Assembly: GCA_017792465.1 (NCBI GenBank)
Contig: CP051234.1
Location: 3,194,501-3,258,500, forward strand
Origin: Filomicrobium sp.
Lineage (GTDB): Bacteria > Pseudomonadota > Alphaproteobacteria > Rhizobiales > Hyphomicrobiaceae
Length of the DNA: 64,000 nt
Reading direction: 5' to 3'
Part shown: piece by piece, positions 170-20,517 of the stretch
How positions within the stretch are numbered: position 1 is the first letter of the stretch
Layout: every line of letters starts with the position of its first letter
Translations under genes and position numbers: made by a program
Notes under the pieces: model-generated
Seen by the model: the letters and a program-made list of their open reading frames with translations, nothing else
Told to the model about the DNA's origin: nothing
The model's database searches: none

Positions 170-1240
170 ATGACTTCAGGACCAACGATACCCCCATTCC
201 GGCTTCGGGAGGTGGCTGCGAGAACTCTCATGAGACTTGCGGCGATGACGGTCGTTTGCGCAGTTTCTCTGGCTCCGGCTTCGGCATTTGCTGCTGAAGG
301 CTATCAAGTTCGCCTCAGCGATGTTGAGGATCTAAAGGCCGTCTTTGCGACGGTCCGTAGTAAGGATCTGACGGAAGCGCGTGTGCGCACGCCGGGAACG
401 GTTGTGTCTCTCAAGGTTGATGAAGGCGTCGAGGTGAAAGCGGGAGAAGTCCTCGCAGTTGTCACCGATCCCAAGATCGCCTTGAAGATCAAGGCGCTCG
501 ATGCGCAGATCGTGGCGCTTGAATCGCGGATTGAGACGGCCAAGGCCGATTACGATCGGGCACTACAACTTCAACGCCGGGGCGTCACACCGCAATCGCG
601 TGTCGACCAGCTGAAGACCACGCTTGATGTCGCGACGAATGATCTGGTCGCCACCCGTGCCGAGCGCCAAGTATCAGAGACGCAAACAACAGAAGGTGAA
701 GTCTTGGCTCCGGCGGCGGGCCGTGTGCTCAAGGTTCCGCTGACAGTTGGCAGTGTCGTGATGGCGGGCGAAAGCGTGGCGTCGATTGCGGCGAATGAAT
801 TCCTGCTGCGCATCGAGCTTCCAGAGCGGCATGCGCGTTTCATCAAGGTTGGCGACAAGATCAAGGTCGGCGCCAGAGGATTGGGCTTGGATGCCAAGGC
901 GACGACGGAGGGCCGGATCCTCCAGGTCTATCCCGAACTGCAGTCTGGACGGGTAATTGCGGATGCGGAAGTTCCCGGTTTGAGCGATTACTTCGTTGGC
1001 GAACGCGCGCGGGTCTGGATTTCTGTTGGCAAGCGTCAGGCGATTGTTGTTCCTTCCGACTACATTTTCACCCGTTTCGGCCAGGATTTTGCGCGCGTTG
1101 TCGCGGTAGACGGTAAGCCGATCGACGTTGTGGTGCAGCTTGGCCAGGAGGTTTCGCTCGAAGGACATGGCAGGGCGCGCGAAGTCCTGGCAGGCCTCGT
1201 TGCAGGCGATGAAATTCTACCCGTGAAGAGCGCGCCATGA
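170..1240 (+). CDS. RND efflux periplasmic adaptor subunit (membrane fusion protein)
   Basis: This is the periplasmic adaptor of a tripartite RND pump, linking the inner-membrane permease encoded by the next gene to an outer-membrane channel. A signal peptide ends near the sequence ASAFAAEG. It is followed by a biotinyl-lipoyl-like half (VRTPGTVVSLKVDEGVEV), a coiled-coil hairpin (about residues 105-170) and beta-barrel domains, in the order usual for HlyD/AcrA-type proteins. Its 356 residues are typical. An ATG at 230 would start directly at the signal peptide and is a credible alternative; neither start has a clear Shine-Dalgarno sequence. The stop overlaps the permease start (ATGA at 1237-1240), so the two are translationally coupled. 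The substrate cannot be told from sequence, and no outer-membrane channel gene is adjacent. Confidence 0.9.
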   Translation: MTSGPTIPPFRLREVAARTLMRLAAMTVVCAVSLAPASAFAAEGYQVRLSDVEDLKAVFATVRSKDLTEARVRTPGTVVSLKVDEGVEVKAGEVLAVVTDPKIALKIKALDAQIVALESRIETAKADYDRALQLQRRGVTPQSRVDQLKTTLDVATNDLVATRAERQVSETQTTEGEVLAPAAGRVLKVPLTVGSVVMAGESVASIAANEFLLRIELPERHARFIKVGDKIKVGARGLGLDAKATTEGRILQVYPELQSGRVIADAEVPGLSDYFVGERARVWISVGKRQAIVVPSDYIFTRFGQDFARVVAVDGKPIDVVVQLGQEVSLEGHGRAREVLAGLVAGDEILPVKSAP

Positions 1241-4200
1241 GCGAACAAGACCCCCACACCACCGCCCGGCTTGGCATTTCGGGCTGGCTGACACGCGCGT
1301 TCATCCAGTCACCGCTGACGCCGCTCATGCTGATCGCCGCTATTGCGCTCGGCGTGCTGGCGCTGGTCGCCCTGCCGCGCGAAGAAGAGCCGCAGATTTC
1401 GGTTCCGCTTGTCGATATCCACGTGCAGGTCGACGGGCTCAAGGCGGAAGACGCGGTGCGGCTCGTGACCGAGCCGCTGGAAACGATCGTCAAGTCGATC
1501 AACGGTGTCGAGCACGTCTATTCCAATACGCTTGACGATCAGGTTCTCGTGACGGCTCGGTTTCTGGTCGGGACGTCTTCTGATGAAGCCATCCTGCGGG
1601 TGCATGAAAAGATCCGCGCGAATTTCGATCGCATTCCAATCGGCATCCCTGAGCCGTTGATCGTTGGGCGCGGCATCGATGACGTTGCAATCGTGACGTT
1701 GACGCTGGTGCCAAAGCCGGAAGCGGCTGACCGCTATCCAGACAATGCGCTTTATCATCTGGCCGACAATCTCCAGATCGAGCTCGCCAAGCTTGATGAC
1801 GTTGGACTGTCCTACGTTGTTGGTGGCCGGCCCGACCAAATCCGGGTCGAGCCTGATCCTGAGAAATTATCGCTTTATGGCGTGACGCTGGCTCAGCTCG
1901 TCGGCAAGATCCGTGAAGCAAACCGGTCGTTCCTTGCGGGCCGCGTTTTGGACAAGGGCCAAAGTATTCCGGTTTCCGCCGGTCAGACGCTTAATGGCGT
2001 TCCCGACATTGGACTTCTGCTGATTGGGACGCGCGATGGCCGTCCCGTTTATGTGCGCGACGTTGCAAATGTTGTCGTCGGGGCCAAGCCGGTCGAACAT
2101 CGGGCCTGGCATTTCCATCGCAATGACGACGGCAGCATGACGCGCGTTCCCGCGGTCACGATCGCTCTTGCCAAGCGGGCAGGCGCCAATGCCGTGACGA
2201 TTGCCGAAGAAATTCGTCATCGCGTCAGCGAATTGGCCCAAACCAAGCTGCCGCACGACGTCGAAGTGATTGTCACCCGCGACTACGGCGAGACGGCCAA
2301 CGAAAAGGCCAACGAGCTTCTCTTCCATCTGGGACTGGCGACGATTTCAATCGTGGCTCTGGTCGCGTTGGCGATTGGCTGGCGCGAGGGGCTGGTGGTC
2401 GCCATCGTCATTCCGGTGACGATCCTATTGACGCTCTTTGCTTCCTATATGATGGGCTACACCATCAACCGCGTCAGTCTCTTTGCGCTCATCTTTGCCA
2501 TCGGCATTCTCGTCGACGACGCCATCGTCATCATCGAGAACGTGGCGCGCCACTGGGCGATGGGCGATGGCCGGTCACGCATTCAGGCTGCGATTGATGC
2601 CGTGGCGGAAGTCGGGAACCCGACCATCGTAGCGACGCTGACGGTTGTTGCTGCGCTGTTGCCGATGCTTTTCGTATCCGGCCTGATGGGGCCTTATATG
2701 GCGCCGATCCCGGCGAATGCTTCGGCTGCGATGGTGCTGTCGTTCTTCATCGCGGTGACGGTTACGCCGTGGCTGATGCTGCATTTCGCCGGTCATAAGG
2801 CGGGTGGGCATGGGGAGCATGAGGCGAGTGATGGCGGCATACTGGGTCGCACTTACGCGCGGGTGGCGAAGCCTATTATCGCTTCGCGTGCGCGGGCATG
2901 GGTCTTCCTTGTCGTTGTTGGAATTTTGACGCTTGCGTCGCTCGTCTTGTTCTACACGCGCTCGGTGACGGTCAAGCTTCTGCCCTTCGACAACAAATCG
3001 GAATTGCAGGTGGTGGTCGATCTGCCGCGCGGGGCCGCACTCGAAGAGACCGACCGGGTTTTGCGGCTGGCGGCCGAACGTCTTTCCGGGCTTGAGGAAC
3101 TCGCCTCCATTCAGGCTTATGCGGGTACGGCCGCACCGTTCAACTTCAACGGTCTTGTGCGTCACTACTACCTGCGCGGCGAACCGCAGCAAGGGGATTT
3201 GCAGGTCAACCTGAAACCGAAAGGCGAGCGCAGCCGCACCAGTCATGAGATTGCGCTTGACGTTCGCGAGCGGCTGTCTGCCGTCCCACTTCCTGAAGGC
3301 TCGGTGGTGAAGGTGGTCGAAGTTCCGCCAGGGCCGCCGGTGATCTCGACGCTGCTGGCGGAGATCTATGCACCCGATGCGGAAGCGCGGCGGCGAATTG
3401 CGAGTGAAGTCCGCGGCATCTTCAAGGACGTTGATTTCATCGTCGATGACGATGACAGTTTTGGCCGCGCCGGACCGCGGCTGCGGATGGTTATCGACCA
3501 GGACAATTTGGAGTTCCATAACGTCGAGCAAAGCGACGTCTACGACACGATCAAATCGTTTTTCGGCGGTGTTGCGGTGGGCTATTCGCACCGCGGTGGC
3601 GGGCGGCATCCCGTTGAGATCGACGTGCAGGTTCCACGTTCGGGGTTGGAGATTTCCGAGAGAATGTTGTCGAGCCCGGTGCCGGCGAACGCCTTGCCTG
3701 GCGGACGCTCGATCGTTGAACTCGGGGACGTCGTGAGCCTGTCGCGGGAGACGGCGTCTTTCCCGATTTTCCGGCACAACGGGCGGCCGACCGAAATGGT
3801 GATGGGTGAACTGGCCGGTGCCTATGAAGCGCCGCTTTATGGCATGCTGGCGGTGGCGGAGCGCATCGACAAAAAGGATTGGGGGAGCGATGGCAAGCCT
3901 GAGATCCTGCTGCATGGTCAGCCGGGCGATGACAGTAAGCCCGCGCTGCTTTGGGACGGTGAATGGGAAGTGACGTGGGTGACGTTCCGCGACATGGGGG
4001 CGGCATTCGCGGTGGCGTTGCTGGCGATCTATATTCTTGTCGTCGCGCAGTTCGGGTCATTCACGATCCCCCTTGTTATTTTGACGCCGGTGCCGCTGAC
4101 GCTCATTGGCATTATGATCGGGCACTGGATATTCGGCGCGCCTTTCTCGGCGACTTCGATGATCGGCTTCATCGCGCTGGCGGGGATCATCGTGCGCAAC

Positions 4201-4515
4201 TCGATCCTGCTTGTCGATTTCATCACCGAGCGGCGCAGCGCGGACGTGCCGTTGCGGCAGGTCTTGATCGAAGCCGGTTCGATCCGCTTCAAGCCGATCG
4301 TTCTGACGGCGCTTGCGGCAATGATCGGCGCGGTCGTTATTCTGGCCGATCCGATTTTCCAGGGCTTGGCGATTTCGTTGCTGTTCGGCTTGGCGTCGTC
4401 GACGCTTCTGACGGTGCTTGTCATTCCGGCGATCTATGTCGCGCTGCGGGATGACGGGCGTTCGTTCGGCAACGGTGAAGAGGGTGTCGACGCCTCGACG
4501 GCGAATGGAGCATGA
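1237..4515 (+). CDS. RND efflux transporter permease subunit (AcrB/AcrD/AcrF superfamily)
   Basis: This is the proton-driven inner-membrane permease, 1092 residues, about the size of AcrB homologues. It has the expected first transmembrane helix, a large periplasmic loop, a block of helices that includes the motif GILVDDAIVIIEN with the paired aspartates of the proton relay in helix 4, then a second periplasmic loop and a second helix block (LAGIIVRNSILLVDFI). The twin-Asp motif favours the drug/hydrophobe type over CzcA-type metal pumps. It overlaps the adaptor gene by four bases. The substrate is unknown. Confidence 0.93.
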   Translation: MSEQDPHTTARLGISGWLTRAFIQSPLTPLMLIAAIALGVLALVALPREEEPQISVPLVDIHVQVDGLKAEDAVRLVTEPLETIVKSINGVEHVYSNTLDDQVLVTARFLVGTSSDEAILRVHEKIRANFDRIPIGIPEPLIVGRGIDDVAIVTLTLVPKPEAADRYPDNALYHLADNLQIELAKLDDVGLSYVVGGRPDQIRVEPDPEKLSLYGVTLAQLVGKIREANRSFLAGRVLDKGQSIPVSAGQTLNGVPDIGLLLIGTRDGRPVYVRDVANVVVGAKPVEHRAWHFHRNDDGSMTRVPAVTIALAKRAGANAVTIAEEIRHRVSELAQTKLPHDVEVIVTRDYGETANEKANELLFHLGLATISIVALVALAIGWREGLVVAIVIPVTILLTLFASYMMGYTINRVSLFALIFAIGILVDDAIVIIENVARHWAMGDGRSRIQAAIDAVAEVGNPTIVATLTVVAALLPMLFVSGLMGPYMAPIPANASAAMVLSFFIAVTVTPWLMLHFAGHKAGGHGEHEASDGGILGRTYARVAKPIIASRARAWVFLVVVGILTLASLVLFYTRSVTVKLLPFDNKSELQVVVDLPRGAALEETDRVLRLAAERLSGLEELASIQAYAGTAAPFNFNGLVRHYYLRGEPQQGDLQVNLKPKGERSRTSHEIALDVRERLSAVPLPEGSVVKVVEVPPGPPVISTLLAEIYAPDAEARRRIASEVRGIFKDVDFIVDDDDSFGRAGPRLRMVIDQDNLEFHNVEQSDVYDTIKSFFGGVAVGYSHRGGGRHPVEIDVQVPRSGLEISERMLSSPVPANALPGGRSIVELGDVVSLSRETASFPIFRHNGRPTEMVMGELAGAYEAPLYGMLAVAERIDKKDWGSDGKPEILLHGQPGDDSKPALLWDGEWEVTWVTFRDMGAAFAVALLAIYILVVAQFGSFTIPLVILTPVPLTLIGIMIGHWIFGAPFSATSMIGFIALAGIIVRNSILLVDFITERRSADVPLRQVLIEAGSIRFKPIVLTALAAMIGAVVILADPIFQGLAISLLFGLASSTLLTVLVIPAIYVALRDDGRSFGNGEEGVDASTANGA

Positions 4516-8162: not shown

Positions 8163-8549
8163 TGGTGGTTGCCTTGCGACGTTGGACAGAATTTCAAACT
8201 GTTTGAGCAAGGCATATGCCAGTGACGTTTAGTGCTGGTTAAGCGGAATTTACGTTTTCGTGATCGCGGCGCGCGGGCTACTGGCGGGCGGCTTATGGGC
8301 GAGCAACACCGCAGAGGGCCGTTTCAATTGCAGGTCGTCGCTCAAAGACCGGCGCCGGGTCGCAATGCAGATCAGTGAGACAATACGATTTGAGCTGAAA
8401 ATTTTCGGGCGATGACCATTTCGATCTTTGCGGCGATCAGGTCTTTAGTTTCGGAACTTCAGGTCCAGTTATGTTGACAATTGTCATCGCTGCTCGGTGC
8501 TGCGCGGATCAATTATGCCTCTCCAACATCTCAAATATGGAGTTTGATC
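8163..8549. other. Intergenic divergent promoter region
   Basis: This gap of nearly 390 bases separates the minus-strand cupin gene from the plus-strand DsrE-like gene. I see no gene in it. It contains a perfect 12-base palindrome near its right end (listed separately). Confidence 0.5.
8475..8486. promoter_or_regulatory. Perfect 12-bp palindrome, candidate operator of the dsrE-like gene
   Basis: The sequence TGACAATTGTCA is its own reverse complement. It overlaps a TTGACA hexamer at 8474-8479 that could serve as a -35 element, about 65 bases upstream of the DsrE-like start. No convincing -10 box was found at the usual distance. The regulator is unknown. Confidence 0.35.
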
Positions 8550-8966
8550 ATGCGCCTTCTTTCCCTTGCGGGGCTCGTTCTTGCGGTTTTCGTAGCAGCT
8601 GTTCCGGCAGCGATTGCCGGCAACGATGACCCGCTGTTCCTCAACTTGACGACCGATGACAGCCATCGGGCGACGATGGCGCTTGGGTTCGTTGCCAAGC
8701 AACAGGAGCGCGAGCATCCCGTCTCGATTCTGGTCAACGACAAGGCCGTCAATATCGTTGCCAAAAGCAATTCGGAGGCGTTCGGCGAACATCAGAAGAC
8801 GATTGCGAAAATTGTGAAGGCGGGCGGAACGGTTCTGGTCTGCCAGATGTGCATGAAGCATTACGGCATCGAAGCCAGCGATCTCATTGATGGCGTCAAG
8901 CTCAGCGACCCCGATCTTGCCGGTGCTGAGTTGTTCAAGGACGATTCACGCACGCTGACTTGGTGA
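8550..8966 (+). CDS. Secreted DsrE/DsrF-like family protein
   Basis: This is a 138-residue exported protein. A clear signal peptide (residues 1-23, ending AAIAG) precedes a DsrE-fold domain. A CxxC pair lies in VCQMCMKHYGI (C98, C101), where DsrE-like proteins carry their sulfur-handling cysteines. I chose the ATG at 8550 because it begins the signal peptide; an upstream in-frame start at 8481 gives an implausible leader. Cytosolic DsrE relatives carry sulfur in persulfide relays, and a periplasmic version close to a flavocytochrome c sulfide dehydrogenase operon suggests a role with reduced sulfur compounds (inference). Confidence 0.8.
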   Translation: MRLLSLAGLVLAVFVAAVPAAIAGNDDPLFLNLTTDDSHRATMALGFVAKQQEREHPVSILVNDKAVNIVAKSNSEAFGEHQKTIAKIVKAGGTVLVCQMCMKHYGIEASDLIDGVKLSDPDLAGAELFKDDSRTLTW

Positions 8967-9084: not shown

Positions 9085-10014
9085 TTAGCGGTCTTTTCCC
9101 TCGGCGCGCAGAATGGCCTCGCGCAGCCATTTGTGGCCTGGATCGCTGTCATAGGATGCGTGCCACAGCATCGAGATCGTCACCTCCGGCAGTTCAAGCG
9201 GAACGGGGCTCAGCGTCAGACCCAGTTCGCGCGCGAAGATCTTGGCCAAACGCGCGTGCATGGTCGTGACGGCGGGAGCGCCGGCGACCAGGAATGGGAC
9301 GCCGACGAAGCGCGGCGTCGTGAGCGTGACCCTGCGTGATAAGCCGATTTTTTCCAGGGCATCGTCGACGACACCGCGCTCGCCTTTTCGAAGGCTGGTC
9401 AAAATGTGCGGCAAACGCGTGTAGTCTTCGAGCGAGATCGGTGGCTTTAGCCCAACTTTCTTGGCGTTGAACATGCAGAGGTAGCTGTCGGTCACCAAAA
9501 GTCGGCGCTTGTGGTGGACTTGTCCGTCGGGGAAAGTGCCGATGCCGATCGCCAGATCGATGGTGTCGGCATCGATTTCGTCAAGGATCTGGCGCTCGTC
9601 GGTGGAATGGAAACGAAAGCGGATACCTGGGGCTTCTTCGCATCCGATGGCCAACAGCTTTGGGCCGATCAGCATCTCGACACTGTCCGGCAGGGCGATG
9701 TGGAAGGTCCGCTCGGTCTTGGCGGGCTCGAATTCATCGGCGCGGGTGACGAGCGCTTCAATATCCGACAACGCGATGCGGACGCGGTCGGCGAGCGCTA
9801 GCGCCCTTGGGGTCGGCTGCATGCCGTCGGGAGATCGTACAAACAACTCATCATCGAAAAGCTGACGGAGCCGCGCCAGGTTGTGGCTCATGGCCGACTG
9901 GCCAAGTCCGACGCGGGCCGCGGCCTTGGTGACGCTGCGCTCGGTTAACAAAGCGTCAAAGGCCACAAGCAGGTTGAGGTCGGTTTTGGCCAAATTGATG
10001 TGATCGATAGCCAT
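9085..10014 (-). CDS. LysR family transcriptional regulator
   Basis: This 309-residue protein has an N-terminal winged helix-turn-helix (LLVAFDALLTERSVTKAAARVGLGQSAMSHNL spans the recognition helix) and a C-terminal effector-binding domain. The pattern resembles NodD/SyrM-type regulators. I chose the ATG at 10014; an upstream in-frame ATG at 10062 would add 16 residues. It is divergent from the small secreted protein gene at 10113 and convergent with the DsrE-like gene. The effector is unknown. Confidence 0.9.
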   Translation of the reverse strand: MAIDHINLAKTDLNLLVAFDALLTERSVTKAAARVGLGQSAMSHNLARLRQLFDDELFVRSPDGMQPTPRALALADRVRIALSDIEALVTRADEFEPAKTERTFHIALPDSVEMLIGPKLLAIGCEEAPGIRFRFHSTDERQILDEIDADTIDLAIGIGTFPDGQVHHKRRLLVTDSYLCMFNAKKVGLKPPISLEDYTRLPHILTSLRKGERGVVDDALEKIGLSRRVTLTTPRFVGVPFLVAGAPAVTTMHARLAKIFARELGLTLSPVPLELPEVTISMLWHASYDSDPGHKWLREAILRAEGKDR

Positions 10015-10020
10015 TATGAA

Positions 10021-10034
10021 TCCAATCTGTTGGA
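10021..10034. promoter_or_regulatory. Inverted repeat, candidate LysR-type operator
   Basis: TCCAA-TCTG-TTGGA is a perfect five-base inverted repeat seven bases upstream of the LysR start, in the divergent region shared with the gene at 10113. LysR regulators commonly bind short dyads (T-N11-A type) in such positions. Confidence 0.35.
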
Positions 10035-10112
10035 CTAATGGCGCGAGACGTATCATTTTCACGCTCAGAAGGAAACACCACAGCGTCGGTTTCCAATAAA
10101 AGCAGGAGCAAA

Positions 10113-10454
10113 ATGATCATGAAGAACTTCAAAATCGCACTCGCCGCTCTGGGTCTCGCAGCTGGTCTCGCAACCTCGGTTCAGGCCGCTGACCTTGCCG
10201 CGTACCGCGGTCAGAAAATCGACCTGGGCAACATCAGCGGCATTGCCTACTACACTGTCGAGAAGGACGGATATCGCGTTGTTGCAACGCTGGCCGACCG
10301 CGACAGCAACTCGGTTCGTTTCGAGGCCGTTCTGGCATCCGGTCAGAGCATCGTTCTGTCGTCGCCGGCAGTTCGTGGCGATGTTCCGGCTCGCATCGAG
10401 ATCAGCCGCAACGATGATAACGTCAAAGTTCAGTCGGTGCCTGTCACGAACTAA
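10113..10454 (+). CDS. Small secreted protein of unknown function
   Basis: This is a 113-residue protein with a signal peptide (residues 1-27, ending SVQAAD). A mostly beta-strand mature part follows, with segments IAYYTVEKDGYRVVATL, VRFEAVLASGQSIVLSS and RIEISR. An AGGAG motif at 10104-10108 precedes two in-frame ATGs at 10113 and 10119, and either may be used. A strong terminator follows. It is divergent from the LysR gene and may be its target. I do not recognise a family. Confidence 0.75.
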   Translation: MIMKNFKIALAALGLAAGLATSVQAADLAAYRGQKIDLGNISGIAYYTVEKDGYRVVATLADRDSNSVRFEAVLASGQSIVLSSPAVRGDVPARIEISRNDDNVKVQSVPVTN

Positions 10455-10535: not shown

Positions 10536-10979
10536 TCAAGGCGTCGGGCCGGTCGCCTGACTGAGCGTTTCAAGGTAGGCGATCACGTCCTGGCGTTCGG
10601 CCTGTTCGAGGCCTGCGAACGTCATGTAGGTGCCGGGCATGAATGTGTCGGGCCGGTCGAGAAAATATTCGAGCGCCTCCTTGGTCCAGACGAGGCCACC
10701 GGCGCCTGCAGCTTTCATGCTCTCGGAATATTCGTAACCGGGGATGGAGGCAGCACGCCGTCCGATGACGCCGCCGAGCGGGGGCGCCAGCTTGAGTGGG
10801 GCTGCCGGATCGACGGTATGGCAGACGGCACATTTTCTGAAAACGTGTGCGCCTCTGGTCGCATCCTGGCCCCAAGCATTGAAATTCGCCATCGAACTCA
10901 TTGAGACGCCGAACAACACGACCGTGAATGCGGCAACGCATCTGGATAAGCGTTTCCATTTTTGGGGAAAACGATACAT
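10536..10979 (-). CDS. Class I c-type cytochrome (monoheme, periplasmic)
   Basis: This 147-residue protein has an N-terminal signal/anchor segment (about residues 12-37) and one heme site, CAVCH (50-54). The probable axial methionine is in PGTYMTFAG (M119), as in cytochrome c2/c550-type electron carriers. It is the last gene of the minus-strand operon with the FccB-type flavoprotein (49-base gap). The natural inference is that it accepts electrons from the flavoprotein/diheme cytochrome and passes them to a terminal oxidase or reductase. Confidence 0.9.
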   Translation of the reverse strand: MYRFPQKWKRLSRCVAAFTVVLFGVSMSSMANFNAWGQDATRGAHVFRKCAVCHTVDPAAPLKLAPPLGGVIGRRAASIPGYEYSESMKAAGAGGLVWTKEALEYFLDRPDTFMPGTYMTFAGLEQAERQDVIAYLETLSQATGPTP

Positions 10980-11028
10980 CGAACCGGCCAGTCTTCTTCT
11001 TCAGGGGAGTTGGACAGGAGGCGGCGTG

Positions 11029-12357
11029 TCAGATCTTCTCGACACGTTTGTTGAAGGTTTCAGCGATGATCCCAGCATACCAGCCAAGGCTCTCTTTGTA
11101 CGAATCCGCTCTGGTTTTTGCATCTTCGTCGACATCGGAGACGAAGGTGAAATTCTTCTTCAGTTCACCGTCGACCACCCGGTAACCGGCGCCGACCTTG
11201 ACGCTGGCGTTGGGCGCGATCAGCGACCAGCATGTGTTGCGGTAGCGGGCGGGGTAGCTGGGTTTTCCCGAGAACGTTGTTTCAATGTGGTTGGAGACTG
11301 ATTTTGCCTGGCTGTTGGCGGAGAAGGCTGACTTCGGCATGTCGCCGGCGGTTGAGGAATCTCCGATCACGTAAACGTCGGGAACGAGCTTTGAAGCAAA
11401 GTTCTCCGGGTTCACCGGACACCAGTCGCCGTCTGCGCAACCGGACTGATGGGCGATTGGTGCGGACTTCTGCGGCGGAATGATGTTGGCAACGTCGGCT
11501 TTGATTTTCATGCCGGCGGCGGTTTGGACGGTTTTGGTGCCGCGATCGACGCTGACGACTTGCTGGTTATCGATGTCGTTGGTCAGGTTCACCTCGATCA
11601 TGCCGGGGTAATACGTCTCGAAGGCCTGCATGAAGAGCGCCTGCTTGGCGAAGCCCATCTTGGCATCGACGAGAATGATCTTCGAACGCGGCTTATATTG
11701 TTTGAGGTAGTTCGCGATCATGCAGACGCGCTCGTAAGGGCCTGGCGGACACCGATACGGATTGCCCGGTGGGGCGACGACGACGGTGCCGCCATCGGAC
11801 ATCGCGCGCAGTTGGGAAAAGAGCAATCGCGATTGTTCGCCGCCGCGATAGGCGTGCGGGAAGACGTCGAAATCGCGTTCGGTCAGCCCGTCGATCCCTT
11901 CGAGTTTGAAGTCGATGCCCGGGGATATCACGAGTTTGTCGTAGGGGACGTTCGATCCATCTTCGAGGCGAACGAACTTCTTGTCAGGGTCGATGCCGGC
12001 AGCGCGGGCCTTGACGTGATTGACGCCGATGCTGGTCAGGCCGTCGTAGGAATGGGTGATGGAATCAAGCGTGCGAAGTCCGCCCAGGTAAAGGTTGGAG
12101 AAAAAGCACGTCGTGTAGAGGCTCGATGGTTCGATCAGCGTCACGTCGATTTCGGGGCTGCCGCGGCGCAGGATGTGCGCAAGCGTTCCGCCTCCCGGGC
12201 CGCCGCCGATGATGACGACGCGGCCGTTGGCGCCGCGATTGACAGACGGGGCGTTCACTTGCGCCAGTGCGCCCGGCGCACCAAACGCGGCAAGGCCTGC
12301 ACCTCCCAGGAGACCTGCAAATTGCCGGCGGTTCAGTCTGGCCAAATTCTTTTTCAT
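11029..12357 (-). CDS. fccB: Flavocytochrome c sulfide dehydrogenase, flavoprotein subunit (FccB type)
   Basis: This 442-residue periplasmic FAD enzyme is of the sulfide:cytochrome c oxidoreductase type. It has a twin-arginine signal (NRRQFAG, residues 9-15). An FAD-binding Rossmann motif is seen in VVIIGGGPGGG. A cysteine in TTCFFSNLYLGG (C84) aligns with the covalent-FAD cysteine of FccB. The redox-active pair is represented by cysteines in NPYRCPPGPYERVC and GCADGDWCPVNP; the latter stretch is a hallmark of the FCSD C-terminal domain. It sits between a diheme cytochrome gene and a monoheme cytochrome gene, in the order expected for an electron chain from sulfide or a polysulfide. The exact substrate is inferred from family. 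Confidence 0.88.
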   Translation of the reverse strand: MKKNLARLNRRQFAGLLGGAGLAAFGAPGALAQVNAPSVNRGANGRVVIIGGGPGGGTLAHILRRGSPEIDVTLIEPSSLYTTCFFSNLYLGGLRTLDSITHSYDGLTSIGVNHVKARAAGIDPDKKFVRLEDGSNVPYDKLVISPGIDFKLEGIDGLTERDFDVFPHAYRGGEQSRLLFSQLRAMSDGGTVVVAPPGNPYRCPPGPYERVCMIANYLKQYKPRSKIILVDAKMGFAKQALFMQAFETYYPGMIEVNLTNDIDNQQVVSVDRGTKTVQTAAGMKIKADVANIIPPQKSAPIAHQSGCADGDWCPVNPENFASKLVPDVYVIGDSSTAGDMPKSAFSANSQAKSVSNHIETTFSGKPSYPARYRNTCWSLIAPNASVKVGAGYRVVDGELKKNFTFVSDVDEDAKTRADSYKESLGWYAGIIAETFNKRVEKI

Positions 12358-12382
12358 TTCAGGTTTCCAGGGAGCAGTTGGA

Positions 12383-14275
12383 TTATCGATTTGCAGGCGG
12401 CAGTGCGGCCAGGCGGCGGTCGACTTCCGGACCCGCGCCGAGTGCTTTGGCTTCCAAGTACCATTTGCGTGCCATCAAGGGTTCGGCGACGATGCCGGTC
12501 ATCGGATCCCATTTGAGGACGTTGGGATCGTAAGAGGAGGCAATGAGCAGTGCGGCGCGGGCATCGCCGAATTCGGCAGCGCGTTTGAGCAGCAAGCGCG
12601 CCGAGGAGACGTTGCCGTTGTCGATCATGGATTGGGCGCGTTCGATCCAGCCGGCGATGCGGGCGGTCTGCTCGCGGTCGGCTTTGCGGAGCGTACGTTT
12701 GGCTGGCTTCGGTTTCGGAGCTTGTGGGCTGGGCGCTGCGATCTGCTCAGCGGTTGCGGGTTTAATACGGCTGAGATAGAGCGCCAAAGCGTGCGTGTCG
12801 CTTTCGCTCAAGGAGGCGGCGACTGACTGCATGATCTTGTTGGATCGCTTTTTGCGCCGATAAAGATCGATGGTGTTCTTGAAGCGATCGACTTCAAGTC
12901 CGATCATGACGGGAATGCCGACATCGTTGCCATAAAGGCTGTGGCAGGTCGTGCATTCGCGGACGAGGACTTTCGCCAATTCCAGCTGGGCTTCCTCTGA
13001 ATCCTGCGCCGGGCGCGTTGCAATCGCTGCACCGTCGACTTCGGCACCGCCTGTCGCTTCACCAGGCTTGATGCGGGCGAGGTAAAGCGCAAGAGCGCGG
13101 GTTTCATCATCGGACAACGAATTGGCAATCGATTGCATCACCTTGTTGGAGCGTTTTCCGCGGCGGTAAAGATCCATCGTGTTGATGAAGCGGTCGGCGG
13201 TCAGACCGGCCATGACCGGAATGCCGACGTCCTTGGCGTAAACGTTGTGGCAGGTGGTGCATTCCTTGACCAGGAAACGGCCCATCACGATGAGTTCGTC
13301 GTCGCTGCGCGTTGGCCCGGAAGCTGCTGCATCTGCGGCCGGCGTCTTGTTTGCTGCTGAAGGCTGAGTGCCGTCACCGTCTTTTTGTTTGTCGAGGAAC
13401 GATCGCCAGTCGACGACTCCAGGCTTTTGGGTCGCTCCGGCTTTCGGTTCGGTCTTTGGTTCCAATTGGGCTGTCTGCTCGTTGGGGGACGGCGAAGCCC
13501 CGGCATCGTTGGCGGGCGTCTGTCGGTTGTTTGGGTTCGGGCTAATTAGCTTGCGGTCAGCGAGATCCACTTTGACGTCGAGGCGGGCGCTGACGGCCCC
13601 TCCGGCGCCGACGGCAAAGGCGCGAAAGCCAGCCAGGCCAGTGGCGCCGGGTGTCACCTCGATACGGGCGTCGGCAACCGCGTCACGCTTGATGAGCCAC
13701 ATGCCATTACCTATGCGCAGGCCGTTTTGCACCGACAGCGTTTCTGGCACATTGATGAGCATGATGTGATCGCTCTGGAGGACTTCGGGCGATGTCGGCG
13801 AGAGAGGAAATTCGATCGTTGAATTGTTGTCGGGGTTGCCGGGCCTCGTATTTCCACCGCGATTGCCAGCGGGCTGCGGCTTGGACTTGTCTGCGACTTT
13901 GATGAAATATTCCCGCTCCGTCTGGTCGCCCGTTGAATCGACGTAGATCATCGCGTTGATCTTGACGTTGCCGGTGGCATCCGCCTTGAGCTTCAGCTTG
14001 ACGTTCTTTTGCCGGGCGAGCGGGAACATCCACATGCCGGCACCAATGCGTTCACCGTTTTCGACCTCCATCCATTTGGGGACGTGGAGGAGCATGACGA
14101 CGGACTTCTGACTATCGGGTCCGGTGACGGTGATGTCTGGGAGATCGATCCTGCTATTGGCAGGTCCCGACAGGACGATCGGGTCGTCGGCGCGTGCAGC
14201 ACTGACGGCGAACGATGCAGCAGTCAAGAGGCAGAGGAGCGCTGTTCGTCGTGCGGATGTTCGCGGTGGGGTCAT
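12383..14275 (-). CDS. Composite diheme cytochrome c with duplicated N-terminal module
   Basis: This 630-residue secreted protein is much larger than the usual diheme FccA subunit. A signal peptide (about 1-29) is followed by two copies of an unfamiliar beta-rich module. Copy 1 contains HVPKWMEVENGERIGAGMWM and copy 2 NVPETLSVQNGLRIGNGMWL. A Pro/Asn/Thr-rich linker then leads to two cytochrome c553-like domains, each with CTTCH (339-343 and 441-445) and a near-identical tail (DLYRR.KRSNK.MQS). The C-terminal 110 residues include a Sel1/TPR-like stretch (ARLLLKRAAEFGDARAALLIA). It lies 25 bases upstream of fccB and presumably fills the role of the diheme electron acceptor. I know of no named family for the N-terminal modules. 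Confidence 0.82.
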   Translation of the reverse strand: MTPPRTSARRTALLCLLTAASFAVSAARADDPIVLSGPANSRIDLPDITVTGPDSQKSVVMLLHVPKWMEVENGERIGAGMWMFPLARQKNVKLKLKADATGNVKINAMIYVDSTGDQTEREYFIKVADKSKPQPAGNRGGNTRPGNPDNNSTIEFPLSPTSPEVLQSDHIMLINVPETLSVQNGLRIGNGMWLIKRDAVADARIEVTPGATGLAGFRAFAVGAGGAVSARLDVKVDLADRKLISPNPNNRQTPANDAGASPSPNEQTAQLEPKTEPKAGATQKPGVVDWRSFLDKQKDGDGTQPSAANKTPAADAAASGPTRSDDELIVMGRFLVKECTTCHNVYAKDVGIPVMAGLTADRFINTMDLYRRGKRSNKVMQSIANSLSDDETRALALYLARIKPGEATGGAEVDGAAIATRPAQDSEEAQLELAKVLVRECTTCHSLYGNDVGIPVMIGLEVDRFKNTIDLYRRKKRSNKIMQSVAASLSESDTHALALYLSRIKPATAEQIAAPSPQAPKPKPAKRTLRKADREQTARIAGWIERAQSMIDNGNVSSARLLLKRAAEFGDARAALLIASSYDPNVLKWDPMTGIVAEPLMARKWYLEAKALGAGPEVDRRLAALPPANR

Positions 14276-14339
14276 TGCTTCAACCTGAATTGAGGTTCTC
14301 TGCTTGCCGGGCGTTCGAGGCCCTAGTCTATTCTCTTGA

Positions 14340-15605
14340 CTACCACAACCGGGTGGGGTCGCCAGGAGCAGCGTTCTTTGGGGCGGGCGTTGCGGCTGGG
14401 GCCGGTTGGGCGGCCTGGGCAGGAGCTGCTGGAGGCGGCTGGTCTTTTTGGCGCTGCCATTCGAGGAATTCGTTGAACAAGCGGTCTTGCGCTTCGGGGG
14501 AAAGGTCGGAGGCGGCCGCGTTCTTGTTGCGAATGAATTCGACGAGGCTGTTCTTTTCGGGCTCGGCGGTATTATTGGCGGCCGTCGGCTGGGAAACCTT
14601 CACTCTGGCCAAATGCTGATCGAGCCATTCTTGGGCGGGGCCAAAACGTCTCCAGCCTTTCAACGGGGCGATGAGGTTCAGCTCCTGCCATTTGCGATGC
14701 AAGTGACCCTGGCGGAATTTCGAGACGTTGTCGAAGAACAGGTTGACGAGCTTGGCGACGCGCCGGTAGCGGTCGTTCGTCGGCGCCCAGTTGAAGACGG
14801 TCAGAACGGCAGGTACGGCAATCGTATCGACGGTCCGATCCTCTTTGATCAGGCGGGGATAGTCCTCGGCGGTCAGGATTGTCGGCAGATAGTCATTTTC
14901 GAGTTCGGCCACATAGGGAATGTCGAGGAACCGGACGCCGTCTTCGATGCCCGCGATGTCGAAGATTGGAGAGGGTTTGCCGGCGATGATCAGCGAGGCA
15001 TCGAGTTTACCACTGCGGATCGCAGCCAGCGCTTCGGCTTGGGTCATGTTGACCGGGACAATGTTGATGCCGAGCGCGGAGAATAGCAGGCTTGAGGTGA
15101 GCTGGGTGCCGCTGCCGATGCTGCCGACGTTGACGCGCTTGCCTTCCAGGCCCTTGATATCGGCGATCTTTTCGGATGCGACGAGGTGGAGTTCTTCGTT
15201 GAACAGCTTGGTGACATAGAGAAGTTTGCGGTCGATCGTGGGGCCGAGTTCGCTGTCGCGTTTGAGGTAGCTCAGGACATCGGCCTGGGTGATGCCCATG
15301 TCGATGTTTTTCAGGTGCAGCAAATCGAATACGTTTTGCACCGCGCCTTTGCCGACCATCGGAATGATGCGCATATCCAGGCCGTCATCGAGCACGGTTG
15401 CCATGTCTTCGACGAGGCGCAAATGAATGCTGTGCGATCCGCCGGTGACGATCGTCACCGTGTTTTCGTTCATGCGGGTCCGGTCTGCGGGGAGGGACAG
15501 CTGGACGTCCTTCGCCAGGCCTTGGGCGACGGCAACGTGAGGGTCAAGAAAGAGGATGAAGCTTGCGAGAAACGCAAGCACGCCAAAAACACTAAACCTC
15601 GACAC
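14340..15605 (-). CDS. TAXI family TRAP-type solute-binding protein
   Basis: This 421-residue periplasmic binding protein has a signal peptide (about 1-27, ending AVAQG). The TAXI (TRAP-associated extracytoplasmic immunogenic) hallmarks are IVTGGSHSIHLRLVEDMATVL, KRVNVGSIGSGTQLTSSLL and the aromatic segment near the middle. The last 35 or so residues form a Pro/Ala-rich tail. It is the first gene of the minus-strand operon with the two cytochromes and fccB. No TRAP permease (DctQM-like) gene is present in the window, so it may act as a sensor or delivery protein rather than as part of an importer (inference). Confidence 0.82.
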   Translation of the reverse strand: MSRFSVFGVLAFLASFILFLDPHVAVAQGLAKDVQLSLPADRTRMNENTVTIVTGGSHSIHLRLVEDMATVLDDGLDMRIIPMVGKGAVQNVFDLLHLKNIDMGITQADVLSYLKRDSELGPTIDRKLLYVTKLFNEELHLVASEKIADIKGLEGKRVNVGSIGSGTQLTSSLLFSALGINIVPVNMTQAEALAAIRSGKLDASLIIAGKPSPIFDIAGIEDGVRFLDIPYVAELENDYLPTILTAEDYPRLIKEDRTVDTIAVPAVLTVFNWAPTNDRYRRVAKLVNLFFDNVSKFRQGHLHRKWQELNLIAPLKGWRRFGPAQEWLDQHLARVKVSQPTAANNTAEPEKNSLVEFIRNKNAAASDLSPEAQDRLFNEFLEWQRQKDQPPPAAPAQAAQPAPAATPAPKNAAPGDPTRLW

Positions 15606-16159: not shown

Positions 16160-17299
16160 GTGGCTGGCGTCGCTGACGTGAATTCCACTTTGTCGAGAGG
16201 ACGGACCGCGAAACTTTCGCGCCACCTCATCAATTTCTGGCTTGTCGTTTCGGCGGTGTTTGCTGGGGCAGCAACGGGCTGGGCGCAAAGCGGGCCCGTT
16301 CCAGTCTTTCTGACCCAGGCGAAAAAGTCTGAACTTGTCGACCGTGTCGAGGCGCTCGGGACGCTCAGGGCGAACGAGCAAGTCACCGTTACGGCGCAAG
16401 TAACCGAAACCATCACCGAGATCCGCTTCGAAGACGGTCAGGACGTCAAGAAGGGGGATACTCTGGCGTTGATGACGAGTGGTGAAGAGGCGGCCAACCT
16501 GAAAGAAGCGGAAGCTACGGTGCGGGAAGCGCGCTTGCAGCTCGAAAGAGCCCAGCCTCTTGCGAAACGTGGGGTCAGCTCGGAAGCGACCTTGTCAGAG
16601 AGACGGCGTGATTTTGAGACGGCCGAGGCGCGGCTTGAAGCTGTCAAGTCGCGGATCGCCGACCGCCGCATTGAAGCGCCATTTTCCGGCGTCGTCGGTC
16701 TGCGCCGCATCAGTGTCGGTGCGCTGGTCGAGCCTGGAACCGTTATTACAACCATTGACGATGACAGCGTCATGAAGCTCGATTTCACGGTGCCGGCGAC
16801 GTACTTGTCCACGTTGCGGGTCGGCCTTGAGATCGAAGCGACTGCGGAGGCATTTCCGGGCCAGAAGTTCAACGGCAAGGTGACGGGCATCGATAGCCGG
16901 ATCGATCCGGTGACGCGGTCGATTACCGTGCGGGCCGTCATACCTAATGAGACGAGGACCTTGAAGGCTGGCCTCTTGATGACGGTCGAGGTGCTCAAGA
17001 ACAAGCGACTGGCTGTCGTCGTTCCGGAGCAGGCCGTTGTTCGTCGCGGTCGCGAAGCCAGGGTGCTCGTCGTCGATCCGAAGGCCGAGAAGCCTGTCGC
17101 GAAGGCGCAGGTTGTCGAGCTTGGATGGCGCGGCAACGGTATGGTCGAAGTGATCTCCGGCCTGCAGGATGGCGAATTTGTCATCGTTGACGGGATTTTG
17201 CGCGTCAAGCCCGGACAGGCCGTATCAATCTCCGCCGTTGACGAGGGGGATCAACCCTTAAGCGAGCTCTTGAAGCAGAAGTCCTCAAAGGGGACGTGA
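16160..17299 (+). CDS. RND efflux periplasmic adaptor subunit (second system)
   Basis: This 379-residue membrane-fusion protein has an N-terminal hydrophobic signal (HLINFWLVVSAVFAGAATGWAQ). The lipoyl half-motifs (TVTAQVTETITEIRFEDGQDVKKGD and IEAPFSGVVGLRRISVG), coiled-coil hairpin and barrel domains are typical. The GTG start at 16160 is supported by a perfect AGGAGG at 16147-16152 with a seven-base spacing. The MexA/AcrA-like permease gene follows after 68 bases. No outer-membrane channel gene is adjacent. Confidence 0.92.
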   Translation: MAGVADVNSTLSRGRTAKLSRHLINFWLVVSAVFAGAATGWAQSGPVPVFLTQAKKSELVDRVEALGTLRANEQVTVTAQVTETITEIRFEDGQDVKKGDTLALMTSGEEAANLKEAEATVREARLQLERAQPLAKRGVSSEATLSERRRDFETAEARLEAVKSRIADRRIEAPFSGVVGLRRISVGALVEPGTVITTIDDDSVMKLDFTVPATYLSTLRVGLEIEATAEAFPGQKFNGKVTGIDSRIDPVTRSITVRAVIPNETRTLKAGLLMTVEVLKNKRLAVVVPEQAVVRRGREARVLVVDPKAEKPVAKAQVVELGWRGNGMVEVISGLQDGEFVIVDGILRVKPGQAVSISAVDEGDQPLSELLKQKSSKGT

Positions 17300-17367
17300 G
17301 GGCCGGCGTTGCTGCCGCCCACACCCCCGACATTTGATCTCCAACTGCGTGCCAGGATCCACCTTCC

Positions 17368-20300
17368 ATGTTTCTATCGGATCTTTCCGTCAAACGTCCG
17401 GTCTTTGCAGCAGTTGCGTCCTTGCTGCTGATCGCCTTCGGCATCGTCTCTTACGACAAGCTGCCGCTGCGCCAATACCCTGACATCGATCCGCCGGTGG
17501 TTAGCATCGAAACGCTTTATCCGGGGGCGTCGGCGAATATCGTCGAAACCCGTGTGACGGAGCTCATCGAAGAGCGGATTTCCGGCGTTGAAGGGATCTC
17601 GTTTATCGAATCCAAGAGCGAGGACGGGCAGTCGACGGTTACCGTCGAGTTCAAGGTCGGACGTGACGTCGATGCGGCGGCCAACGATATCCGCGACCGT
17701 GTTTCCGGCATTCTCGACGATCTGCCTGACGAAGCCGATCCGCCGGAAATTCAGAAGGTCGATGCCGACCAGGACGTGATCATGTGGCTCAATCTGGCGA
17801 GCGACGAGATGTCGGTTCCGGAATTGACCGATTACGCCAAGAGATATCTGGTTGACCGTTTCTCGGTGCTGGATGGCGTGGCCCGGGTCAGAATAGGTGG
17901 ACAGCAGATCTACGCCATGCGGATCTGGCTTGACCGCAAGGCGATGGCGGCGCGCGGCCTGACAGCTAACGATGTCGAAAACGCGCTGCGCTCTGAAAAC
18001 GTTGAGTTGCCGGCGGGTTCGATTGAATCGCGCAATCAGCTTTTTACTGTTCGTATTGAGCGGTCGTTCACATCGGCTGACAAGTTTGCCTCGATGGTTC
18101 TGCGGCGCGGAGATGACGGTTATCTCATCCGTCTTGGCGATATCGCCAAGGTTGAGAAGGGGACCGAAGAAGACCGCAGCTTCTTCCGCGGCAACCTGGT
18201 GCCGATGGTCGGCATCGGGATCATCAAGCAGTCGACGGCCAACACCATCGCGGTGGCGCGGGCGGCGAAGGAAGAAGCCGCTAAAATCAACAAGGCCGGT
18301 CTGCCGAGCGGCATGGCGATCCGGCAGAGCTACGACACTTCGGTTTTTGTCGAGGGGGCGATCAACGAAGTCTACAAGACGCTGTTTATCGCGATTGTGC
18401 TCGTCATTCTCGTCATCCTCGTGTTCCTTGGCAGTCTTAGGGCCACGCTCGTCCCGACGGTTACGGTGCCTGTTTCCGTCGTTGCGACCTTCACCGTGCT
18501 CTATATCCTGGGCTTCTCCATCAACCTCCTGACGCTTCTGGCGCTGGTGTTGGCGATCGGTCTGGTCGTTGATGATGCCATCGTCGTTCTAGAAAATATT
18601 GTTCGCCGTATCCGGGAACTGGGCGAGACGCCGCTGGTCGCCGCCTTCAACGGGACCCGGCAGGTCGCCTTTGCGGTCGTTGCAACGACAGTCGTTTTGA
18701 TTTCCGTCTTCGTGCCGATCGCGTTTCTCGAAGGGGACATTGGGCGTCTGTTTGCCGAATTCGCCCTGACGATGGCGGCGGCTGTCGGTTTTTCGAGTTT
18801 TGTGGCGCTTTCGCTGTCGCCGATGATCGCGAGCCAGATCCTAAAAAAGGGCGAACGGGCGAGTTTTGCCGAGCGGACGGTCGATTACGTTTTCAGCGGC
18901 GTCCGCAAGGCCTATTCGGTGACACTGCGGGGCGCGCTCGCCGCCCGCTATTTTGTTGTCTTGATATTCATGGGGTTGTGCTTCGGCTCTTTCATGTTGT
19001 TCGAGCAGCTTCCTGCCGAGTACGCGCCGAAGGAAGACCGGGGTGCCTTCTTCGTCATCGTCAACGGACCCGAGGGCGCGACCTACGCCTACATGAAGGA
19101 GTACATGGACGAGATCGAGCGGCGCTTGATGCCCTATTCGGAGTCGGGAGAGTTCGAGCGGCTGTTGGTGCGGGCGCCGCGGACCTTTTCCAATTACGAG
19201 ACCTTCAATTCCGGCATCGTGATTGCCGTGCTGAATGATTGGTCGAAGCGCCGATCCGCTTGGACGATGATGGCAGAGATCCGCAAGACCCTGTCCGACT
19301 TGCCGGGTGTCAGGGCGTTTCCCGTCATGCGACAGGGCTTCGGCGGGCGCATCCAGAAGCCGTTTCGCATGACGATCGGCGGAGGCACCTGGGAGCAGCT
19401 GGCCGAATGGCGCGATACGCTTGTCTCGGCGATTGAAGAGGACAATCCCGGACTCGTCGGGCTTGATTGGGACTACAAGGAGACCCAGCCGCAGCTGCGC
19501 GTCGAGATCAACTACAATCGAGCGGCCGAACTTGGCGTGACGGTTTCGAACATCGGCCGGACGCTGCAGACCATGCTTGGGTCTCGGCGGGTGACGACGT
19601 TCACCGATGATGGCGAGGAGTATGATGTCATCCTCGAAGGGCAGCGCGATAATCAGCGCACGCCGGCCAGCCTGCAAAACATCTATGTGCGCTCGGAGCG
19701 GTCGAATGCCCTCATTCCGTTGTCGAATTTTGTCAGCGTCCGCGAAGAGGCCGGCTCGACCGCGCTTAACCGCTATAACCGCATCCGCGCCATTACGCTG
19801 GAAGCCAACCTCGCCGACAACCTAGCGCTGGGCAAGGCGCTCGCGCATGTCGAGAAGCTGGCGCAGGAAAAGCTGCCGCCGTCGGTGATCATCGACTACA
19901 AGGGGCAGTCGCTCGACTACAAGAATGCCGGGCAGTCGCTGATGTTTGTTTTTCTGCTTGGTGTCGCGGTTGTCTTTCTGGTCCTTGCAGCCCAGTTCGA
20001 GAGCTGGGTGCACCCGCTTGTCATCATGCTTACCGTGCCGCTGGCGGTTGGCGGGGCTTTGCTGGGACTTTGGCTGACCGGGGCGACGCTCAACATTTAC
20101 AGCCAGATCGGGCTCATCATGCTGGTCGGACTGGCAGCCAAGAACGGTATTCTGATCGTCGAATTCGCTAATCAGCTGCGCGATGAGGGCAAGGGATTTG
20201 ACGATGCTTTGCTGGAAGCTTCGGTGCTGCGATTGCGGCCGATCATCATGACGGGCATCACGACGGCTGCTGGCAGCATCCCGCTCATCTGGTCGTTCGG

Positions 20301-20517
20301 AGCCGGTGCCGAGACGCGGTTTGTGATCGGGGTCGTCGTTCTGTTCGGCGTGCTGGCGGCGACGTTCATGACGCTCTACCTCATTCCCGTCGCCTATTCG
20401 CTGTTGGCGCGGGGCACAGGTTCGCCCGGCGATATCGCGCGGCAGCTCGATCGGGAGGCGAAGCTCTCAAACGCCGGTCTCGGACACGGTCAGCCTGGAG
20501 CGGCACCTGCGGAATAA
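17368..20517 (+). CDS. RND efflux transporter permease subunit (HAE1/AcrB type)
   Basis: This 1049-residue inner-membrane pump has the standard N-terminus (SDLSVKRPVFAAVASLLLI). The helix-4 proton-relay motif AIGLVVDDAIVVLENI has adjacent aspartates, and the second-half motif GLAAKNGILIVEFANQLRDEG is typical of AcrB/MexB. The length matches the family. It forms an operon with the adaptor at 16160. The likely role is export of toxic hydrophobic compounds; the specific substrate is unknown. Confidence 0.94.
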   Translation: MFLSDLSVKRPVFAAVASLLLIAFGIVSYDKLPLRQYPDIDPPVVSIETLYPGASANIVETRVTELIEERISGVEGISFIESKSEDGQSTVTVEFKVGRDVDAAANDIRDRVSGILDDLPDEADPPEIQKVDADQDVIMWLNLASDEMSVPELTDYAKRYLVDRFSVLDGVARVRIGGQQIYAMRIWLDRKAMAARGLTANDVENALRSENVELPAGSIESRNQLFTVRIERSFTSADKFASMVLRRGDDGYLIRLGDIAKVEKGTEEDRSFFRGNLVPMVGIGIIKQSTANTIAVARAAKEEAAKINKAGLPSGMAIRQSYDTSVFVEGAINEVYKTLFIAIVLVILVILVFLGSLRATLVPTVTVPVSVVATFTVLYILGFSINLLTLLALVLAIGLVVDDAIVVLENIVRRIRELGETPLVAAFNGTRQVAFAVVATTVVLISVFVPIAFLEGDIGRLFAEFALTMAAAVGFSSFVALSLSPMIASQILKKGERASFAERTVDYVFSGVRKAYSVTLRGALAARYFVVLIFMGLCFGSFMLFEQLPAEYAPKEDRGAFFVIVNGPEGATYAYMKEYMDEIERRLMPYSESGEFERLLVRAPRTFSNYETFNSGIVIAVLNDWSKRRSAWTMMAEIRKTLSDLPGVRAFPVMRQGFGGRIQKPFRMTIGGGTWEQLAEWRDTLVSAIEEDNPGLVGLDWDYKETQPQLRVEINYNRAAELGVTVSNIGRTLQTMLGSRRVTTFTDDGEEYDVILEGQRDNQRTPASLQNIYVRSERSNALIPLSNFVSVREEAGSTALNRYNRIRAITLEANLADNLALGKALAHVEKLAQEKLPPSVIIDYKGQSLDYKNAGQSLMFVFLLGVAVVFLVLAAQFESWVHPLVIMLTVPLAVGGALLGLWLTGATLNIYSQIGLIMLVGLAAKNGILIVEFANQLRDEGKGFDDALLEASVLRLRPIIMTGITTAAGSIPLIWSFGAGAETRFVIGVVVLFGVLAATFMTLYLIPVAYSLLARGTGSPGDIARQLDREAKLSNAGLGHGQPGAAPAE

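Follow-up and report, generated by a model that had tools for sequence, protein, structure and literature searches.

A four-gene unit on the chromosome of Filomicrobium sp. suggests that a redox enzyme cooperates with a ligand-binding protein of a kind normally used for transport. Solute-binding proteins serve transporters and receptors. The window, the 64,000-nucleotide stretch of DNA analysed here, covers 3.19–3.26 Mb of a 4.47 Mb single-contig genome, and within it four minus-strand open reading frames (10536–15605) encode, in order, a TAXI protein, a composite protein, an FccB-type flavoprotein and a monohaem cytochrome c. Both FCSD and TAXI proteins are already known, as is a TAXI protein that functions with no TRAP permease (TAXI-GltS; PMC12344293), while no paper joining FCSD with TAXI, or TAXI TRAP with Sel1, was found in the open-access literature.

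Layout and conservation of the operon

The four genes are as follows.

14340–15605, minus strand: TAXI-type periplasmic binding protein, 421 aa, with a GTG start and a C-terminal extension (TIGR02122, PF16868)
12383–14275, minus strand: composite protein, 630 aa, with a signal-like segment, two Ig-like domains, two FccA-type haem c domains and a Sel1-like tail
11029–12357, minus strand: FCSD-type flavoprotein FccB, 442 aa, with a twin-arginine signal (PF21706, PF09242)
10536–10979, minus strand: secreted monohaem cytochrome c, 147 aa, with CAVCH at 10818–10832 (PF00034)

A previous, sequence-only reading of this DNA had described four genes in one orientation with short gaps, and all four lie where it placed them, on the minus strand, separated by 64, 25 and 49 bases. 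Its TAXI, FccB-type and cytochrome identities agree with Pfam and NCBIfam matches: the TAXI protein scores 89.1 bits against TIGR02122 (cut-off 84.35) and 64.4 bits against PF16868, FccB scores 148.9 bits against FCSD_central (PF21706) and 56.2 bits against FCSD-flav_bind (PF09242), and the monohaem cytochrome c scores 40.5 bits against PF00034 (Cytochrom_C), with a similarity to cytochrome c-550 CycA that falls below cut-off. Signal-like hydrophobic N-terminal segments are present in the TAXI protein, the composite and the monohaem cytochrome c, the RR motif of the FccB signal is conserved in the alignment, and all four products are predicted to be periplasmic. Neither a separate FccA gene nor a Sox gene was found within the operon. 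A foreign origin was rejected on composition, the GC content of the operon (0.594) being close to that of the window (0.592).

Searches with TAXI and FccB covered 99 relatives, and the best matches to the two proteins fall on the same contigs. The complete order of TAXI, composite, FccB and cytochrome c occurs in the genome studied here and in genomes G057, G854 and G027; G004, whose contig stops after FccB, and G852 (JABFRJ010000136.1), whose contig starts inside the composite, are consistent with it. Genome G026 carries TAXI, composite and FccB on two contigs that share an identical overlap of 203 residues. No cytochrome c was found downstream of FccB in G026, and the monohaem cytochrome c gene is therefore non-essential to the unit; it follows FccB in G057, G854, G027 and G852. 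The TAXI gene adjoins the composite and FccB genes in all six genomes with enough contig, which answers the neighbourhood check proposed earlier, namely whether TAXI is conserved with the cytochromes, and the claim of a distinct FCSD-type system that includes the TAXI gene is borne out by a gene order kept across seven genomes. Because this order is kept and all four genes show purifying selection (omega between G057 and G854 of 0.013 for FccB, 0.055 for TAXI, 0.069 for the composite and 0.111 for cytochrome c), the arrangement is more than chance.

A profile of the haem-Sel1 part recovered the full-length haem-Sel1 fusion in seven of 103 genomes and five of 25 genera of the family. Outside the family, no such fusion was found among 397 genomes sampled from the order, 385 from the class and 398 from the phylum, with scoring limited to the top few candidates in each genome. 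An FccB search of public genome contigs returned three loci, and the kin loci in the public collection belong to MAGs of Hyphomicrobiaceae/Hyphomicrobiales and of one other alphaproteobacterium. Plasmid-borne copies were rejected, the best plasmid matches spanning ~30% of the composite, in its haem part alone. The operon FccBs form one clade (support 100/100) nested among the other FccB proteins of the family, and the operon TAXI proteins (98/93) and the haem domains of all composites (100/99) likewise each form one clade, a pattern that fits one origin with patchy inheritance thereafter. The flanking genes vary between operon copies.

A secreted DsrE-like gene (161 aa, 8481–8966) and a LysR gene (9085–10062), which the sequence-only reading had noted next to the operon, are real, but in other genomes the operon has no homologue of either gene next to it, and they are not part of the system. 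A 138-aa open reading frame at 10038–10454 was set aside as not conserved with the operon. An RND efflux pair (16160–20517) was also rejected as a conserved neighbour, since its orthologues occur in four same-genus genomes without adjoining operon genes; one of the four, G004, bears the operon, yet its RND orthologues stand apart from the operon genes. Separately, two distantly related RND pump genes (1237–4515 and 17368–20517, ~24% identity) flank the operon in the window, and a related adaptor gene lies upstream of each pump gene. Across the operon genomes, no sulfur gene conserved beside the operon was found. A link to methanethiol oxidase (SBP56/PF05694) is not claimed: the homologues in some operon genomes mix close and distant relatives, none is reported for G854 and G852, and the copy in the genome studied here is divergent (145 bits).

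The composite protein and its haem-less relatives

The domains of the composite, all on the minus strand, are as follows.

13940–14158, minus strand: Ig-like domain 1, ~residues 40–112 (haem-less partner profile; modelled beta strands)
13544–13813, minus strand: Ig-like domain 2, ~residues 155–244 (second match of the partner profile; model)
13064–13300, minus strand: haem c domain 1, with CTTCH at 13247–13261, residues 339–343 (Cytochrome_CBB3, 31.4 bits)
12755–12985, minus strand: haem c domain 2, with CTTCH at 12941–12955, residues 441–445 (sequence matches, haem-domain tree)
12398–12691, minus strand: Sel1-like alpha-hairpin tail, ~residues 529–626 (partner profile, domain E 7e-21)

This protein had been read as a 630-residue diheme cytochrome. 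The two CxxCH motifs are there, but the protein as a whole is a version of the usual TAXI partner that has acquired haem. In the family and order, most TAXI paralogues adjoin a secreted, haem-less protein that combines an Ig-like part with a Sel1-like tail. A Sel1-like partner stands at no fewer than 30 of the 41 non-operon TAXI loci with enough flank, a lower bound, most loci having ~1.5 kb of flank only, and on the strength of this count the pairing of TAXI with its partner is ancestral. A profile built from haem-less TAXI partners only matches each composite in collinear pieces that flank the haem part; in G026, for example, the profile matches residues 76–252 and 348–473, with a CxxCH motif at 263. 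Because the profile matches both sides of the haem, the composite is a TAXI partner into which one or more FccA-type haem domains were inserted between the Ig-like and Sel1-like parts. Most composites have one Ig-like and one haem domain, and those of the genus studied here (its own genome and G004) have two of each.

Both haem domains of the composite contain an axial-type Met, and their best matches in structure and in sequence include FccA. Among solved structures, haem domain 1 is most closely related to the monohaem FccA of Thioalkalivibrio paradoxus (5n1t_B; Foldseek TMt 0.70). Foldseek matches of the Sel1-like tail are Sel1/TPR structures, and paralogues match Pfam Sel1 below its cut-off. 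The AlphaFold model of the composite, made from a five-sequence alignment (pLDDT 58.0, pTM 0.28), was used for local domain matches only, and a poor TAXI model from a five-sequence alignment (pLDDT 44.9) was left unused.

The nearest relatives of the operon TAXI and composite genes are thus the TAXI and Ig/Sel1 pairs of Hyphomicrobiales. The operon shares their arrangement, a TAXI gene followed by a secreted Ig-like/Sel1-like gene, whereas the pairs have no haem and no flavoprotein and the operon has both. Permease-free pairs of this type recur (L075, L076, L077, L079 and L083, as well as L078 and L080–L082), with one or two near thrS in several genomes, and they adjoin thrS, secA and other unrelated genes without a permease or redox enzyme. 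No description of the function of these pairs was found in the literature searched. The genome studied here also encodes a 710-aa Ig-like/Sel1-like relative with an internal hydrophobic segment (L138:6703–8832; C1:1626702–1628831), which adjoins dynamin-like GTPase and radical SAM/TRAM genes and has no TAXI gene next door.

The TAXI protein and the flavoprotein

Two sites distinguish the operon TAXI protein, and three cysteines identify the flavoprotein.

14343–14351, minus strand: C-terminal Arg-Leu-Trp (RLW) tail of the TAXI protein (alignment)
15423–15425, minus strand: His61 of the TAXI protein, at the site of VcGluP Tyr45 (correspondence via the 1us4 alignment)
12106–12108, minus strand: FccB Cys84, equivalent to A. 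vinosum Cys42, covalent FAD (alignments)
11749–11751, minus strand: FccB Cys203, equivalent to A. vinosum Cys161, active-site disulfide (alignments)
11419–11421, minus strand: FccB Cys313, equivalent to A. vinosum Cys337, active-site disulfide (alignments)

The operon TAXI sequence matches solved TAXI proteins. The absence of a TRAP permease from the operon, remarked on earlier, is confirmed: both TAXI-type fused permeases of the genome are distant, at 0.71 and 2.40 Mb, and each is paired with its own TAXI gene, so the operon TAXI is an orphan without a permease. With the TAXI-type TRAP binding proteins VcGluP and TtGluBP it has in common the TAXI domain and the GSGT pocket loop; it differs from them in having no adjoining fused TRAP permease, in its RLW-ended extension and in a His or Phe in place of Tyr45. 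Tyr45 of VcGluP dominates glutamate binding (PMC11574862). At this site the operon TAXI proteins have His in five of six genomes and Phe in the sixth, and Tyr is the commonest residue among non-operon TAXI proteins (26 of 44 rows). The GSGT loop (residues 164–167) and Gln/His107 are retained. All six operon TAXI copies with an intact C-terminal end finish in RLW, against none of 44 others, and a proline/alanine-rich linker precedes the tail. From these features we infer a retuned ligand pocket and a docking tail, and substrate capture by the protein is possible. The TAXI-GltS system of Bordetella, with glutamate as ligand, sets a precedent for TAXI function independent of a TRAP permease (PMC12344293), although there the partner is a transporter and that of the operon TAXI is a redox protein. 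Elsewhere the genome encodes an unrelated TAXI-like protein that is up to 447 aa long (L144:6475–7815; C1:268474–269814); the hydrophobic segments at its two ends probably span the membrane, and several relatives have frames of similar length.

The loss of the glutamate-binding tyrosine would also suit another account, in which an ordinary sulfide dehydrogenase is placed or stabilised in the envelope by the TAXI, Ig-like and Sel1-like parts and no TAXI ligand is important. The occurrence of TAXI and Ig/Sel1 pairs near unrelated genes, with neither permease nor redox enzyme, is in keeping with such a general envelope role. However, the operon TAXI keeps its GSGT loop and Gln/His107 and is under purifying selection, which is more than a dead pocket needs, and we consider a pure scaffold unlikely.

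FccB is close to the solved FCSDs (5n1t_A, E 2.4e-109; 1fcd_A, E 1.7e-96). The cysteines of the family, reported in the earlier reading, are present: C84, C203 and C313 align with those of solved FCSDs and are invariant in the alignment. In A. vinosum FccB, Cys42 holds FAD covalently and Cys161 and Cys337 are the redox disulfide (PMC3504083). Like FccAB (A. vinosum, 1FCD; T. paradoxus, 5n1t, with a monohaem FccA), the operon has a full-length FccB with a Tat-type signal, the same covalent-FAD and disulfide cysteines, and an FccA-type haem domain. Unlike FccAB, which has a dedicated small FccA beside FccB, it carries its haem inside the TAXI-partner protein, and it differs further by the added TAXI gene and the extra cytochrome c. 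Although it lacks a free-standing FccA, the operon probably works like an FCSD.

The nearest relatives of the operon FccB are the SoxYZ-linked FccAB loci L086 and L087, from the same family, and L084. L086 and L087 have a free-standing monohaem FccA of 110–116 aa beside FccB, with SoxY adjoining and no TAXI gene. L084 (C1:2556625–2562130), in the genome studied here, is a second FccB-type gene, ~40% identical, beside a SoxA/TsdA-type cytochrome and SoxY. The operon does not share the SoxYZ linkage of SoxEF: the genome has seven SoxY-like genes, all located elsewhere, and the nearest SoxY gene lies ~30 kb outside the start of the window.

Genomes G027 and G057 keep, in addition to the TAXI-type FccB, an FccB of the classical kind with a monohaem FccA encoded separately close by, and the substrate of the operon FccB may therefore have diverged. 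The stem of the operon FccB clade is also long (0.32 changes per column). Both observations would agree with a flavoprotein whose substrate is something other than sulfide, such as an organic thiol or persulfide, with sulfide left to the SoxYZ-linked FccAB paralogue; with the catalytic cysteines and FCSD domains all unchanged, we regard this as quite improbable.

A candidate mechanism

In the mechanism we propose, FccB would oxidise reduced sulfur species at its disulfide and FAD, the substrate most likely being sulfide or a low-molecular thiol or persulfide. Electrons would leave FccB one at a time for a haem domain of the composite, which would occupy the position of FccA, and would then pass from the composite haem(s) through the monohaem cytochrome c of the operon to a terminal oxidase. 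The Ig-like and Sel1-like parts of the composite would retain their ancestral contact with TAXI, and the TAXI protein would therefore be docked to the enzyme instead of to a permease. The changed pocket of the docked TAXI protein would bind a small ligand, and so deliver a sulfur substrate, accept a product or gate the complex.

These parts do not carry equal weight. The FCSD-type electron route is the part we hold with most confidence, closely followed by a sulfur compound as the substrate, which is likely to judge from sequence. Physical binding of TAXI to the composite is somewhat favoured, and ligand delivery or gating by TAXI falls a little short of an even chance. The mechanism as a whole, a periplasmic variant of sulfide dehydrogenase in which the haem subunit also docks a TAXI protein with a retuned pocket and no permease, we judge evenly balanced. 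It is doubtful, though conceivable, that a transport-type binding protein has become a subunit of a respiratory flavocytochrome in the periplasm, where it delivers substrate or acts as a gate; on this equally tentative reading, the sulfur compound would be handed to the active site of an enzyme, not to a membrane transporter, and the haem subunit would have evolved inside the TAXI partner.

That the TAXI protein is instead a periplasmic sensor, reporting a sulfur compound to a signalling partner with the redox genes as regulated output, is very unlikely. Solute-binding proteins can, besides other roles, stimulate transmembrane receptors (PMC9602780), and a LysR gene is close to the operon, but that gene is not conserved, the operon copies of other genomes showed no conserved regulator or sensor kinase next to them, and the fusion of haem to the TAXI partner itself points to physical integration with the enzyme over signalling.

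If the proposed mechanism is true, the fold of a binding protein would be put to another use, through genetic and structural association with an enzyme of the sulfide-dehydrogenase type, and cells could oxidise a scavenged compound in the periplasm with no need to import it. The composite would show how a respiratory subunit is captured into another protein through domain insertion. For the TAXI and Ig/Sel1 pair, which is widespread in Hyphomicrobiales, the association with an enzyme whose activity can be read out makes the module testable.
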